Shown here piece after piece: positions 8,095 through 14,310 of a DNA stretch of 34,155 bases. Positions within the stretch are counted from its first letter, which is position 1, and each line of letters opens with the position of its first letter. The translations under genes and the position numbers were made by a program. The notes beneath the pieces are model-generated. The model saw only the letters and a program-made list of their open reading frames with translations, was not told where the DNA came from and ran no database searches. The DNA lies in assembly GCA_018434355.1 (NCBI GenBank), contig JAHDPL010000018.1, positions 1 through 34,155 on the forward strand, read 5' to 3'. The DNA comes from Sporomusaceae bacterium. GTDB taxonomy: Bacteria > Bacillota > Negativicutes > UBA1444.

Positions 8095-9165
8095 TTATAG
8101 CGTAATCAGTTCATAATCCAAAGAGCCCATTCCCACTTTCGCCGCATGACGGATCTGAATCGTCGCATCATTATGGGCATGTGCTAGTTCAGCCAACGTT
8201 TTGCCATGTTGCGCAGCAGTCAGGTCTAGGGAAGCCTGATCGACCGCCACTGGATCGAATGAGGCAACAATGCCGATATCGGGAATGCACTTCTCCTGGT
8301 TTACGCTAAAACAATCGCAGTCGTTTGTCATATCGATCAGCACATTGATAAAGATGCTTTTACCCGCTTTATTCTTTACGATTCCATAGGCGTGCTCCGC
8401 CATGCTTTTCTGCGTAAAACCCGATTCGGCGTTCCAGTCGTATTTTACTGAATCAAACCGGCACACTGCCAGACATTCACCGCAACCGATACATTTTTCC
8501 GTCAGGATGAACGCCTTGCCGTCCTGTTCGATAATCGCATCCTGTGGACACCACTGAATACATTTCTGGCAATAACGGCATTTGCCCGCGTTGATTTCCG
8601 GCTTCATCGCCGAATGTTCACGCATTTTCCCCATCCGGCTGGCCAGTCCCATGCCGATATTTTTGATACAGGCGCCAAAACCGGTCAAGGGATGTCCGGT
8701 AGCATGTGAAACCACGATCAGTGCATCGGCGCCAACAACTTCGCGGGCAACTTTTACACTCTTATGCAATTCTCCATTGATTGGCAATTCATATTCTGTG
8801 TTTCCTGTAAGTCCATCCGCCATAATGAATGGTGCGCCGGTTTGCTCAATGCCAAATCCGTGCTGCTGGGCATGCAGGATATGTTTGACGGCGTTTTCCC
8901 GTTCTCCTTTATACAGCGTCGAGGTCTCTGTTAAAAACGGTTGGCCGCCGGCCGCTTTTGCCAAGTCAACAATCCGCCGGATCAAAGCAGGCTTTACATG
9001 CGTTGTGTTATGCTTTTCACCGACATGAAATTTGATCGCGACAAAGTCCCGCTTGGCAACGATCCGGTTCAAATCTGCCGCATCATACAATTTTTGCAAC
9101 GCCTCAACCTGAGCTTCCACAGAGGCGCCATCTTCGACCTTTGCCAAAAAAACCTGGGATTTCAT
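8095..9165 (-). CDS. DUF362 protein with two [4Fe-4S] ferredoxin motifs
   Basis: A 356-aa protein of the DUF362 family (COG2768). The DUF362 part flanks a ferredoxin insert with two complete 4Fe-4S motifs: Cys196/199/202/206 (CRYCQKCIQWCP) and Cys225/228/231/235 (CIGCGECLAVC). DUF362 signatures include FHVGEKHNTTHVKP and GFGACIKNIGMGLASRMGK. It has no signal peptide. Electron transfer or iron-sulfur-dependent chemistry is likely, but no reaction is assigned to the family. It starts at ATG 9165 behind GGGAGGAA and is the first gene of the thrC operon, after a terminator at 9200-9228. Confidence 0.88.
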   Translation of the reverse strand: MKSQVFLAKVEDGASVEAQVEALQKLYDAADLNRIVAKRDFVAIKFHVGEKHNTTHVKPALIRRIVDLAKAAGGQPFLTETSTLYKGERENAVKHILHAQQHGFGIEQTGAPFIMADGLTGNTEYELPINGELHKSVKVAREVVGADALIVVSHATGHPLTGFGACIKNIGMGLASRMGKMREHSAMKPEINAGKCRYCQKCIQWCPQDAIIEQDGKAFILTEKCIGCGECLAVCRFDSVKYDWNAESGFTQKSMAEHAYGIVKNKAGKSIFINVLIDMTNDCDCFSVNQEKCIPDIGIVASFDPVAVDQASLDLTAAQHGKTLAELAHAHNDATIQIRHAAKVGMGSLDYELITL

Positions 9166-9594: not shown

Positions 9595-11283
9595 TCAACC
9601 TAAATTGACCCAGCCACGATAAACAAGCCCTCGCATAACATCCATCGTGATTTGCTCGTCTTCGAGCAGCAACTCCGTCGCGTCCGCCGCCCCGATGATG
9701 ATTGGTTTCCCCAGGCTCATGCAAGCGATCGCAGCATGCGACGACAGACCACCTTCTTCCACGATCAAGCCGGCCGATTCTTCGATCAGTCCGATATGCT
9801 CGGTGTCGGTCCCGGCAACGACAACAATTTTATTACGGGCGCGTTTGTTCATGTCAAACAGGGATTTAACGATAGTGACCCTGCCACTGACAATCCCATT
9901 GCCAATCCCCTGCCCTTTGAGAATGATATCGCCCACAGTGATCAGTTTTATCGAATTATAGGCGTTCGGTAAATCCATATTGCCGAGTACGCCGACAACC
10001 GCATCGCCTTCTCTTAGGTGATTTCCTTTTAATGCAGTATCGACTGCCAGCTGCATCACATCCTCCTGTCTGAGGGTCCGTCGGCTAAGCAAGGGCTTGA
10101 CGCCCCAAGCCAGTCGCAGTTGCCGGATCACATGTGGATGCGGGGAAACGGCAATGACCGGCAAGGGTTGACGGAATTTAGCCAACATTCTTGGCGTAAA
10201 GCCGGTTTCGGTCGGCACCAGAAAAGCCAGGGCCTTCATTACTTGGGATGCGTGCACTGCCGTCGAACAGAGTGCGTCAGCTACCGGGCTGGCCACCACA
10301 TGGCCGATGCGTTTTTCATTGCGGACAGACAATAGCTTTTCTTCTTCCAGTCTCGCCGCACTCTTCAATGCCGCCAGCACATCCAGCGGAAATTTATACG
10401 CAGCGCCGCCGGTCGTCACAGCGACGCCGTCAAACCCTTTGTGTAGGGACTTATTAATCAGTTCCTGTCCTTCTACCCCGGATTCGGCCATTGTTTCTTG
10501 GACAGACCCAGATACGAACAGCGTCTTGCCGTTCTGCGAAGCACGCAGAGCTACCGCCGACAGCGGGCAACCCGGTTCAATACCAACCATCAAGGCGCCG
10601 TCGATAATCAGTCCGTCGGCTATTTGCAAGGCTTCTTCCATATTGGTTGCGTTGTCTGTGATACGGGCAAACAGCATTAGATTTGCCTCAACTGCATCGA
10701 GCACCCGTCGGATTTCAATCAGAGACTGCGAATCAGGCGCGGCTGCCACAATCACGCAATCCATACCCGACTTGATCGCCATTTCGGCCGCCAGCATCCG
10801 CTTCTCCGTTGTCGCCTCAACAATCTCCGCCATAAGCACGGGCAGCATTCCGGTATCGTTGGCCGCCTGGCGAACAGCCCGAACTTTTCTGGCCCATTGC
10901 GCAGCATCTTCTGTGCGAAGCGCCAGACTGGCGCCATCCAGGCCTTTTTCGAATAACGCTTGCAAGGTTCGGATGTTCCACTCGTCTTCCACTTGAAGAA
11001 TGATTTTAGTTGCGCAGCAATCTGCCGCTTCCGGTGAAAGGACCGGTGAACTGCCTGATACATAATAACCGCTGCCGCCGCGCACTTCGATCAGGCCGAC
11101 ATACTCTAGCGCGCTCAATGCTTCCCGAACCGAGGAACGACTAGTGCCAAACTGCTCGCACAATTCCTTTTCACTCGGCAATTTTTGACCGCGGAAAAAG
11201 CGGCCGCCTTCAATCCCCTGTCGCAAAAAATCAATAATCACCCGATATGTTTTGACGTTGGGTTTTTCAACATGGTCTTTCAC
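9595..11283 (-). CDS. GntR-family regulator fused to a degenerate pyruvate kinase and PEP-utilising mobile domain
   Basis: A 562-aa protein, GTG start at 11283 behind AGGAGGAGG. Residues about 10-77 are a GntR/FadR-type winged helix (KLPSEKELCEQFGTSRSSV, VGLIEVRGGSGYYV). Residues about 91-320 resemble the pyruvate kinase A barrel with the B domain missing. Active-site motifs are lost: RLNFSH is replaced by SLALRT, the Lys of AKIENEEG by Arg (LFARITDNAT), ARGDLG by IIDGALM and TATQM by VSGSVQ. Residues about 325-435 match the PK C-terminal domain (KFRQPLPVIAVSPHP). Residues about 445-562 match the extra C-terminal domain of Bacillus-type PKs, with KGQGIG and the swivelling-domain EEGGLSSHAAI (His516). 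I infer a metabolite-sensing repressor or activator, divergent from pckA, not a working kinase. Confidence 0.88.
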   Translation of the reverse strand: MKDHVEKPNVKTYRVIIDFLRQGIEGGRFFRGQKLPSEKELCEQFGTSRSSVREALSALEYVGLIEVRGGSGYYVSGSSPVLSPEAADCCATKIILQVEDEWNIRTLQALFEKGLDGASLALRTEDAAQWARKVRAVRQAANDTGMLPVLMAEIVEATTEKRMLAAEMAIKSGMDCVIVAAAPDSQSLIEIRRVLDAVEANLMLFARITDNATNMEEALQIADGLIIDGALMVGIEPGCPLSAVALRASQNGKTLFVSGSVQETMAESGVEGQELINKSLHKGFDGVAVTTGGAAYKFPLDVLAALKSAARLEEEKLLSVRNEKRIGHVVASPVADALCSTAVHASQVMKALAFLVPTETGFTPRMLAKFRQPLPVIAVSPHPHVIRQLRLAWGVKPLLSRRTLRQEDVMQLAVDTALKGNHLREGDAVVGVLGNMDLPNAYNSIKLITVGDIILKGQGIGNGIVSGRVTIVKSLFDMNKRARNKIVVVAGTDTEHIGLIEESAGLIVEEGGLSSHAAIACMSLGKPIIIGAADATELLLEDEQITMDVMRGLVYRGWVNLG

Positions 11284-11386
11284 AAGCCGGTCCTCCTCCT
11301 AAACGATACGACACTATCATACTTTTTATAATTCATGTTCGATTTGATTTTCCCTGCCAAAACCTGATCAAGTTTTATATTCTCTC

Positions 11387-11415
11387 TTGGTTTCTGTTTC
11401 AGATTAGTGTATAAT
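11387..11415 (+). promoter_or_regulatory. pckA promoter
   Basis: TTGGTT (11387-11392), a 17-bp spacer and a perfect TATAAT (11410-11415) predict a start near 11422, giving a leader of about 90 nt before the pckA ATG at 11514. The weak -35 suggests a promoter open to regulation. The divergent GntR-PK gene starts only 104 bp to the left of the -35; I did not find a convincing promoter for it. Confidence 0.65.
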
Positions 11416-11420
11416 TTAAA

Positions 11421-11438
11421 TATCTGATTAATCAGATA
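11421..11438. promoter_or_regulatory. 18-bp palindromic operator at the pckA start site
   Basis: TATCTGATTAATCAGATA is a perfect 18-bp inverted repeat located on the predicted pckA transcription start, directly downstream of the -10. That is a classic repressor position. The adjacent GntR-PK fusion protein is the obvious candidate binder, which is inference. Confidence 0.65.
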
Positions 11439-11441
11439 AAT

Positions 11442-11493
11442 TGGTCTGACATATCTTTTTTCCCGATTCAATTTCGAAGTATTTGTCTGATGA
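11442..11493. promoter_or_regulatory. Two FadR-like half-matching sites downstream of the pckA operator
   Basis: TGGTCTGACAT (11442-11452) and TTGTCTGATGA (11483-11493) both fit TNGTCTGAY and partly match the FadR-subfamily consensus TNGTNNNACNA. Together with the TCTGAT of the palindrome (11423) the repeats start 22 and 41 bp apart, close to two and four helical turns, so they could be bound on one face of the DNA. Confidence 0.4.
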
Positions 11494-11513
11494 ATTATTT
11501 TCAGGAGGGTTTT

Positions 11514-13112
11514 ATGAAACAAAACATCGCGGAAGTCCTGCTTCAGCAGCATAGCCACCCCGTCCATGTAAACCTGGCGATTCCTCGACTGGTCGAAACA
11601 GCAGTTTGTCGAGGCGAAGGCCTGCTCAGTAGCACCGGCGCATTGCGCGTAACAACCGGCAAATACACCGGCCGTTCGCCCAATGACAAATTCATCGTCG
11701 ATACCGCCGATGTTCGCGATGCAATCTGGTGGGACAACAATTTGAAAATTAGCGAAACCAATTTTGCGAAACTGCTGGAGAAGGCGCTTGCCTATCTTAA
11801 AGACAAAGAGTTATTCGTATTTGAAGGTTTCGCCGGAGCCGATACCGGTCACACGTTACCTGTCCGCGTCATCAACGAATATGCCTGGCAGAATATTTTT
11901 GTCCAGCAGTTATTTTTGCGCAGCAGCGATACCGGCTGGGCCTTTCCAAACGAACCGGGGTTCACCGTACTCTGCGCACCCGGCGTGACCGCCGATCCGG
12001 CGCAGGACGGAACTAATTCGGAAGCTTTCGTCATCATCAATTTTGCCAGCAAAATCGTTTTGATCGGTGGCACACAATACGCCGGCGAAATGAAAAAATC
12101 AATTTTTTCCGTCTTGAACTATCTGTTGCCGGAACAAGGCATTCTCTCGATGCATTGCTCGGCAAACCAAGGTTCGAACAATGAAGTCTCCTTGTTCTTC
12201 GGCCTGTCCGGAACCGGAAAAACTTCTTTGTCCGCCGACCCTGATCGGTTCCTGATTGGCGATGATGAGCATGGCTGGGCCGAACACGGCGTCTTTAACT
12301 TCGAAGGCGGCTGCTACGCCAAGTGTATCAACCTTACCCACGAGAATGAACCGCAAATCTGGGATGCCGTCCGTTTCGGCGCAGTACTGGAAAATGCCGT
12401 CATGGACCATGCAACCCGCGCCGTTGATTTTGCCAGTGAAGAAATTACCGAAAACACCCGCGCCGCCTATCCGGTTCATTTCATTCCCAATTGCATTTAT
12501 CCCGGCGTCGGCGCTCATCCCAGCACAGTCATCTTTCTGACCGCAGATGCTTTCGGAGTTTTGCCGCCGATTGCCAAGTTATCGCCCGAACAGGCAATGT
12601 ATTATTTTCTCTCTGGTTATACCTCAAAACTAGCAGGAACCGAGCGCGGCATCACCGAGCCCCAGGCCACGTTTTCAGCCTGCTTTGGTTCACCATTCCT
12701 GCCACTTCACCCTATGCGCTACGCCAGTTTGCTGAAGGAAAAAATCGCCCAGCACAACACCCGGGTATTTCTGATCAACACGGGCTGGCAAGGCGGCGCC
12801 TACGGCGTCGGCAAACGAATCAGCATCCAGTTGACCCGGCGGATGGTCGCTGCAGCTATGGATGGCTACCTTGATTACGTCGATTACGAGTTGCATCCGA
12901 TATTCAACCTGATGATTCCCGCCTCCTGTCCCGGCGTACCCGACGGAGTTCTGCAACCACAAAGTTCCTGGGCCGATCCGGCGGCATACCACAAAGCTGC
13001 GGTGCATTTGGCCGGCATGTTCGACAAAAATTTCCGCAAGTTTTCCGGTATTCCCAGCGAAGTCATCAATAGCGGCCCCTTTTCACTGGACAAGATCGGC
13101 AACGCAGTCTGA
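11514..13112 (+). CDS. pckA: Phosphoenolpyruvate carboxykinase (ATP)
   Basis: A 532-aa ATP-type PEPCK interconverting oxaloacetate + ATP and PEP + CO2 + ADP. The P-loop GLSGTGKTS is at residues 230-238 (Lys236), followed by [10 protein letters not shown] (kinase-2/metal motif) and [11 protein letters not shown]. The N-terminal [13 protein letters not shown] and the C-terminal [16 protein letters not shown] are family signatures. The start at 11514 is set by AGGAGG about 6 nt upstream; an in-frame ATG at 11490 lacks such a site. In anaerobes the enzyme can run in either direction: making PEP from C4 acids, or fixing CO2 to oxaloacetate with ATP gain. It is single-gene, followed by a strong terminator, and divergent from the GntR-PK regulator. 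Confidence 0.97.
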
Positions 13113-13175: not shown

Positions 13176-14144
13176 CTATAGATCGGCTACGTCGGCAAAC
13201 AGCTCGCCCGCCTGTCGAACGTCAACATTTCCTCCGCTAAGGATCACGCCGACACGTTTTCCCTTAACCGGCAACAGCCCTTTAAACAAAGGCGCCAATG
13301 CCGTTGCGCCCGATGGTTCGACAACGATTTTCATCCGGGTCCACAGATAGTACATCGTGTCAAGAATATCGGCATCTGAAACTGTAATCATCTCATCCAC
13401 GTTTTTTTGAATCGCCGGAAAGGTAATCGACCCCAATGATTCGGTGCGTAGTCCATCGGCAATCGTTTGTGGATTGCGGATTTTTTGCAAAGTCCCGGTT
13501 TTGAAGGAACGGGTCGCATCATCGGCGGTCGCCGGTTCCACACCGATGATTCGGCAATCCGGCAAAGTATTGCGGGTATATACGGCGCAACCGCTGAGCA
13601 GTCCGCCACCACCGCAGGGAACCAGCAACATGTCCAGGCTGAATACTTCATCGATAAGTTCGCGGGCAGCAGTTCCCTGCCCGGCGATCACATCCGGGTG
13701 GTTGAACGGCGGGATCAGTTCGTAGCCATGTTCCGCCATCAACTTAGCTGCCAGATCTTCCCGGTTCATCGTCGCCCGGTCGTAAGTAACGACTTCAGCG
13801 CCATACTTGCGGGTAGCCGCCAGTTTTACCGCCGGGGCATCCGATGGCATGACCACTGTCGTTTTCACCCCTAGCAAGCGTCCGGCCAAAGCTACCGCCT
13901 GTGCATGGTTGCCTGAAGAATAGGTTATAACACCGCGAGCTGCAGCTGCAGGCGACAAACGACTGATCGCATTATAAGCGCCACGAAATTTGAACGCGCC
14001 CATCCGTTGAAAGTTTTCGCACTTCAAAAAAACCGTATTTCCCGTCACTTCATCGAGCGAACGGGAAGTTAATACCGGCGTACGATGCGCCACCCCCGCC
14101 AGTCGTTCCACCGCAGCCAAAACGCCCTGATACAAAGGATCCAT
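13176..14144 (-). CDS. Threonine/serine dehydratase (catabolic type)
   Basis: A 322-aa fold-type II PLP enzyme. The PLP lysine is Lys52 in AFKFRGAYN, and SSGNHAQAVA and the phosphate-binding CGGGGLLSGC loop are present. It would deaminate threonine to 2-oxobutyrate (and serine to pyruvate). It lacks the C-terminal ACT-like regulatory domains of biosynthetic IlvA, so it resembles TdcB or serine/threonine dehydratase; serine racemase-like activity cannot be excluded. The ATG at 14144 is chosen because GAGGAGG lies just upstream. It converges on pckA and is divergent from nadE. Confidence 0.9.
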   Translation of the reverse strand: MDPLYQGVLAAVERLAGVAHRTPVLTSRSLDEVTGNTVFLKCENFQRMGAFKFRGAYNAISRLSPAAAARGVITYSSGNHAQAVALAGRLLGVKTTVVMPSDAPAVKLAATRKYGAEVVTYDRATMNREDLAAKLMAEHGYELIPPFNHPDVIAGQGTAARELIDEVFSLDMLLVPCGGGGLLSGCAVYTRNTLPDCRIIGVEPATADDATRSFKTGTLQKIRNPQTIADGLRTESLGSITFPAIQKNVDEMITVSDADILDTMYYLWTRMKIVVEPSGATALAPLFKGLLPVKGKRVGVILSGGNVDVRQAGELFADVADL

Positions 14145-14168
14145 TAATTTTCCTCCTCTCAAAATCAA

Positions 14169-14186
14169 ACCATTCTCACTAATGGT
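14169..14186. repeat. Short inverted repeat between ilvA-type gene and nadE
   Basis: ACCATT and AATGGT flank a 6-nt spacer, about 25-40 bp upstream of the dehydratase start in a 166-bp divergent intergenic region. It could be an operator for the dehydratase. I saw no convincing promoter pair in the rest of this gap. Confidence 0.3.
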
Positions 14187-14310
14187 AAAGGACATCAGGA
14201 AACAGACGGCGAATCTTTTCCCAATAGCAACTCAATACCAATCTAGAATAATATTTCCCGCTCACAAGGCGAAATCCCTGTCGATCACAAAATTTTCGAG
14301 GTGTATTTTT

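Follow-up and report, generated by a model that had tools for sequence, protein, structure and literature searches.

Introduction

The GntR regulators have been divided into six subfamilies (PMC4494728). In the FadR subfamily, the published operator form is GTM-N-KAC, and divergent regulator-target layouts with double sites are known (PMC4494728). The Escherichia coli FadR operator, AACTGGTCNGACCAGTT, is an odd-length palindrome with a GTC-N-GAC core and T/A-rich flanks. In the MocR subfamily, a GntR winged helix is joined to a large enzyme fold, an aminotransferase, that serves as the sensor (PMC4494728), and the operators are spaced direct repeats. In Agrobacterium fabrum, the tetrameric GntR repressor Atu1419 has a sensor of the VanR/FCD type, and one tetramer occupies two palindromes (PMC7797058), which are 190 bp apart.

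Controllers of pckA itself offer a second point of comparison. CcpN is composed of an HTH plus CBS domains. In Bacillus subtilis, it controls pckA by the glycolytic or gluconeogenic state (PMC3616900), and it regulates gapB too. The predicted pckA regulator of Rhizobiales, PckR (PMC4052901), is a LacI family protein, predicted to be a pckA activator and to have a large regulon.

Here, we analyzed a stretch of 34,155 nucleotides from a Sporomusaceae bacterium (the window), in which pckA is divergent from a gene for a fusion protein that joins a GntR winged helix to a degenerate pyruvate kinase. The sites in the pckA leader are, like the E. coli FadR operator, odd-length palindromes with a GTC-N-GAC core and T/A-rich flanks. 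In contrast to FadR, the sensor here is a pyruvate kinase fold and not the all-helical FadR domain, and both sites are part of the target gene's leader. The nearest analogue in design is MocR, from which the fusion differs by having pyruvate kinase and PEP-utilizer domains in place of an aminotransferase and FadR-type palindromic operators in place of direct repeats. The two-palindrome tetramer of Atu1419 is the model that we propose for the predicted oligomer of the fusion. The fusion would join CcpN as a controller of pckA in Bacillota, although the two architectures are unrelated. No report of a GntR-pyruvate kinase regulator was found in the literature searched, which is no proof that there is none.

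Results

Profile searches resolved the fusion protein (Table 1) into a GntR winged helix, a degenerate pyruvate kinase barrel without the lid, a PK_C domain and a PEP-utilizer domain, in that order. The winged helix places the protein in the GntR family (PF00392, residues 12 to 75, 67.8 bits; cut-off, 27), and the match to the barrel was weak. The closest solved structures, by sequence as well as by fold, were 2e28 and 3t05, Bacillota pyruvate kinases with an extra C-terminal PEP-utilizer domain and the same order of barrel, PK_C and PEP-utilizer; unlike these enzymes, the fusion lacks the lid (B) domain, which was skipped in the alignment with 2e28, as well as the catalytic motifs, and carries a DNA-binding domain at its N terminus. 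A partial AlphaFold model built on three sequences displayed eight barrel strands (residues 93 to 290) and gave pyruvate kinase matches in Foldseek; past residue 320, the model was poor and was used for no claim.

Table 1. Features of the fusion gene-pckA region (positions in the window)
Feature	Position	Strand	Basis or remark
Fusion gene, presumed regulator	9595..11283	-	Domain matches; orthologues in five other genomes
Weak -35 TTGGTT, likely pckA promoter	11387-11392		Sequence
-10 element TATAAT, likely pckA promoter	11410..11415	+	Sequence
Perfect 18-bp palindrome TATCTGATTAATCAGATA	11421..11438	.	Two overlapping ATCTGAT elements; specific to the window's genome
O1, TTGGTCTGACATA, predicted FadR-type 13-bp palindrome	11441..11453	+	Centre 11447, near +25 relative to the likely transcription start
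O2, TTTGTCTGATGAA, predicted operator	11482..11494	+	Centre 11488, immediately before the pckA ribosome-binding site
pckA ribosome-binding site AGGAGGG	11503..11509	+	Sequence
pckA, ATP-type phosphoenolpyruvate carboxykinase	11514..13112	+	PF01293, TIGR00224

Compared with ten normal pyruvate kinases, the K-x-E-N, RGD and Thr catalytic motifs were absent or replaced in all six fusions that we found, and the window's protein has none of the marks of a catalytic pyruvate kinase, namely, the Lys and Glu of KIEN, the RGD, the Thr of ATQM and the lid domain. A separate pyruvate kinase is encoded in the window's genome (G000:C33). With the three motifs and the lid gone, binding of PEP by the kinase part, implied in the original prediction, became doubtful, and PEP at the former active site appears unlikely. 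The histidine of the PEP-utilizer domain was retained in all six fusions and might give PEP some role; in the B. subtilis pyruvate kinase, replacing this residue caused no growth defect (PMC11834443).

The effector loop of the PK_C domain, scored as a T-x-T/S-G-x-T phosphate loop, was intact as T-x-T-G-x-T in the window and in genomes G001 and G304 and read S-x-T-G-x-T in G324, while it was altered in G013 (SQTGFL) and G021 (SDTGFI). This loop, kept in most fusions, corresponds to Thr407/409/412, through which the Streptococcus pneumoniae pyruvate kinase holds a phosphate of fructose bisphosphate (PMC10338316). Both AMP and ribose 5-phosphate act on a clostridial pyruvate kinase that has the extra domain (PMC7925390).

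The all-helical FCD/FadR C-terminal domain of the FadR proteins is absent from the fusion, as is any match to the class I aminotransferase-like C-terminal domain of MocR, and the fusion is a GntR family member that fits none of the six subfamilies of PMC4494728. In a by-eye alignment of the winged helix, Lys39 occupies the place of FadR Arg35 (position 28 in PMC4494728). In G021, the winged helix is changed, with Met for Lys39 and Lys for Glu54.

The full fusion was found in 6 of 380 genomes searched of the class, and at the threshold used, no further match containing the winged helix was found among 398 sampled genomes of the phylum. A scan of a second genome collection recovered it only in Negativicutes bacterium UBA1444 (G001) and Lucifera butyrica (G324), and no relatives were found in viral contigs. 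In all six carriers, the fusion gene is divergent from pckA, and the six pckA proteins of the carriers are the six most similar to that of the window, its own copy counted. In the pckA tree, they form one clade with four proteins from fusion-less genomes (100/100 support), and the presence of the fusion requires three changes on this tree, so that a gain with losses, or transfer, is the likely history.

We confirmed the two TNGTCTGAY sites predicted at 11442 and 11483 (TGGTCTGAC, 11442 to 11450, and TTGTCTGAT, 11483 to 11491), which are the only matches to this pattern in the window. Their number in 34 kb is unremarkable (1.5 expected), while their joint presence in the 229-bp intergenic region was reached in 0 of 1,000 shuffles; TCTGAY occurs there four times on both strands, against 0.4 expected. 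The predicted intervals of 22 and 41 bp between TCTGAY units (beginning at 11423, 11445 and 11486) were also correct. Scored by weighted match to TTNGTC-N-GACNAA, O1 was the best site of the pckA leader (15 of 16). Its core, GTCTGAC, fits the palindromic GTM-N(0-1)-KAC exactly, and that of O2, GTCTGAT, differs by one transition. By sequence, O1 and O2 are thus predicted to be ordinary FadR-type GntR sites. They are 41 bp apart, and both lie downstream of a perfect -10 TATAAT.

Strong sites were present in the pckA leaders of five of the six carriers, with best scores of 13 to 16 and the GTC-N-GAC core kept. Four carriers, which represent four lineages at the genus to family level and include two members of a single genus, harbored a pair, the centres lying at -67 and -26 relative to the start codon in the window, -73 and -31 in G001, -62 and -23 in G304, and -72 and -31 in G013. 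The spacing was accordingly 41, 42, 39 and 41 bp, that is, two operators at a fixed distance, as expected of Atu1419-like repressors, and the original prediction of a spacing near whole helical turns stands, at about four turns. G324 had one strong site, centred at -61, with only weak neighbors and no clear second site. Taken singly, the second sites of G001 and G304 and the first site of G013 are weak; MAFFT put both sites of the pair in register, unprompted. Moreover, the observed single and pair scores exceeded those of all 500 to 1,000 leader shuffles for each of three motifs, two of which were chosen after seeing the sites (TTNGTC-N-GACNAA and the bare GTCNGAC core) and one of which, the E. 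coli FadR 17-mer (consensus from PMC3626644), is independent of these data.

A pair was absent from all 24 pckA leaders of fusion-less genomes, and their best scores ranged from 9.5 to 13. The only score of 13, equal to the best of G001, came from a lone site far upstream (L051), and the four fusion-less members of the carriers' own pckA clade (L042, L043, L044 and L045) reached 9.5 to 11.5. The predicted link between an operator array for pckA and the neighboring fusion is thus supported by the recurrence of the sites in relatives that carry the fusion. It could be argued that another FadR-type GntR regulator, encoded elsewhere in the genome, binds these operators and that the fusion is a neighbor with another role, given that the motif is typical of the FadR subfamily as a whole and that these genomes encode several other GntR proteins. 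We consider this unlikely, because the pair was found only beside the fusion and is missing from the four fusion-less leaders of the same clade. In addition, G021, the only carrier to have lost the sites, is the one with the changed winged helix, a single data point in the expected direction.

Between its fusion gene and pckA (L004), G021 has another palindrome, CTAAACTAATTGTTTAG, upstream of the likely -10, which is possibly a changed operator matching the changed winged helix.

The 18-bp palindrome had been placed on the predicted start of pckA. This holds for the likely transcription start, at about 11422, but not for the coding start, which is most likely ATG 11514 rather than ATG 11490, judging from the AGGAGGG at 11503 to 11509 and from an N terminus in register with that of the congener. 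With this start, the site at 11483 falls in the leader, right before the ribosome-binding site. In all five genomes with sites, TATAAT begins 22 to 37 bases before the centre of the first operator. This bears on a second alternative, in which the fusion binds the sites yet activates pckA, or is an antirepressor on both genes. FadR-type GntR proteins can activate, and the promoter is a predicted one with a poor -35. However, operators downstream of TATAAT in all five genomes occupy the position of a repressor, which leaves activation improbable and, in our ranking, behind binding by another GntR protein.

The presence and the coordinates of the perfect palindrome were as predicted, and it is improbable by chance: TATCTGATTAATCAGATA is the only perfect palindrome of at least 14 bp in the window, and shuffling produced a perfect 18-mer in 0.2% of cases for the intergenic region and, for the whole window, 0.07 times per shuffle. 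It could therefore be taken, lying over the likely transcription start, as the principal operator, with PEP in the pyruvate kinase part as the signal. However, the palindrome fails the conservation test that the original prediction had set for it, since no counterpart was found in any relative compared, including the congener. Its halves, furthermore, lack the GTC/GAC core, and the catalytic residues for PEP binding are lost, so that this explanation is quite improbable. The right half scores 13.0, a weak operator, at +12, where three relatives place their first site, and the palindrome is probably an accessory, weaker binding region. An imperfect palindrome further upstream, AACCTGATCAAGTT (11361 to 11374), had also been counted in the array; it matches in six of seven pairs, and with 0.44 such palindromes expected by chance in the region, we gave it no weight. 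Overall, the earlier reading of the array is thus partly supported.

That the palindrome and leader act as RNA (a 5' hairpin, an attenuator or a riboswitch) and not as protein-binding DNA is very improbable: at its 5' end, the transcript would carry a 7-pair hairpin formed by the palindrome, but the leader folded no better than shuffles (z, -0.17) and had no Rfam match and no terminator-like site, and the palindrome is not conserved.

Discussion

Taken together, these data indicate that the operator pair of the pckA leader probably serves the divergent fusion, which would be a local repressor of pckA with a pseudo-enzyme as its sensor. The fusion protein would bind O1 and O2 and repress pckA by blocking initiation or early elongation, as suggested by the first operator lying downstream of TATAAT in all five genomes with sites; we infer the sign of the regulation from a predicted promoter with a poor -35. 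Pyruvate kinases are tetramers. By analogy with these enzymes and with the tetrameric GntR protein that bridges two palindromes, and given that 41 bp is about four helical turns, tetramerization of the fusion is plausible, and the pyruvate kinase fold would assemble into a tetramer holding both operators at once.

DNA binding may be switched by AMP or a phosphorylated sugar bound in the PK_C loop, since this loop, kept in most orthologues, matches the phosphate-holding threonines and the clostridial enzyme responds to AMP and ribose 5-phosphate. The PEP-forming carboxykinase would thereby follow the glycolytic or gluconeogenic state. Some observations speak against this overall reading: only five genomes have the sites, G324 has no clear second site, several of the sites are weak when taken singly, a fusion-less leader has a lone site as good as the best of G001, the winged helix carries Lys in place of FadR Arg35, and the effector loop is degraded in G013 and G021. 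More tentatively, the fusions may constitute a new GntR subfamily, seen here in only a few Negativicutes, in which a whole pyruvate kinase, including the PK_C effector site and the PEP-utilizer domain, has lost catalysis and acts as both the sensor and the tetramerization core of a repressor. This repressor would clamp two operators separated by about 41 bp and place pckA under the control of the metabolites that control pyruvate kinase.

The relatives keep two spaced sites only where the fusion is next door to pckA. This restriction points to a former metabolic enzyme that has taken on the role of a gene switch. If this is true, a glycolytic enzyme now serves as the sensing part of a transcription factor that governs the opposing step of gluconeogenesis, and the fusion is a natural two-site regulator whose allosteric fold is well studied. 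With a short DNA target, given by the conserved operators, and a concrete list of ligands (AMP, ribose 5-phosphate, fructose bisphosphate, glucose 6-phosphate and PEP), sensing by the fusion becomes a simple binding question, and the pyruvate kinase allosteric site could be studied independently of catalysis.

We obtained no support for a wider regulon, and the fusion protein seems to regulate pckA locally. Genome-wide in the carriers, exact single sites were few, mostly in reading frames and not enriched over a reversed-pattern control; the pair pattern occurred five times in the window's genome against none in the control, with no excess in most other genomes. In G001, a 13-bp palindrome with the core of the pckA operators, CCTGTCTGACAGG, lies by the ribosome-binding site of the fusion gene (L002:3202-3214), which suggests autoregulation in that species only.

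Some neighboring genes were also of note. The gene convergent with pckA (window 13176-14195, minus strand) passes the NCBIfam cut-off for threo-3-hydroxyaspartate ammonia-lyase, an enzyme whose product, oxaloacetate, is the substrate of PckA. In two other families, the fusion gene has downstream of it a prephenate-dehydratase-like gene, recognized by eye from its translation (L031:645-1526 and L032:3482-4360), which loosely ties the fusion gene to a PEP-using pathway. In both members of the genus, the fusion gene is followed by a gene for a DUF362/ferredoxin-type protein (window 8095-9165, minus strand, and L033:5880-6905).
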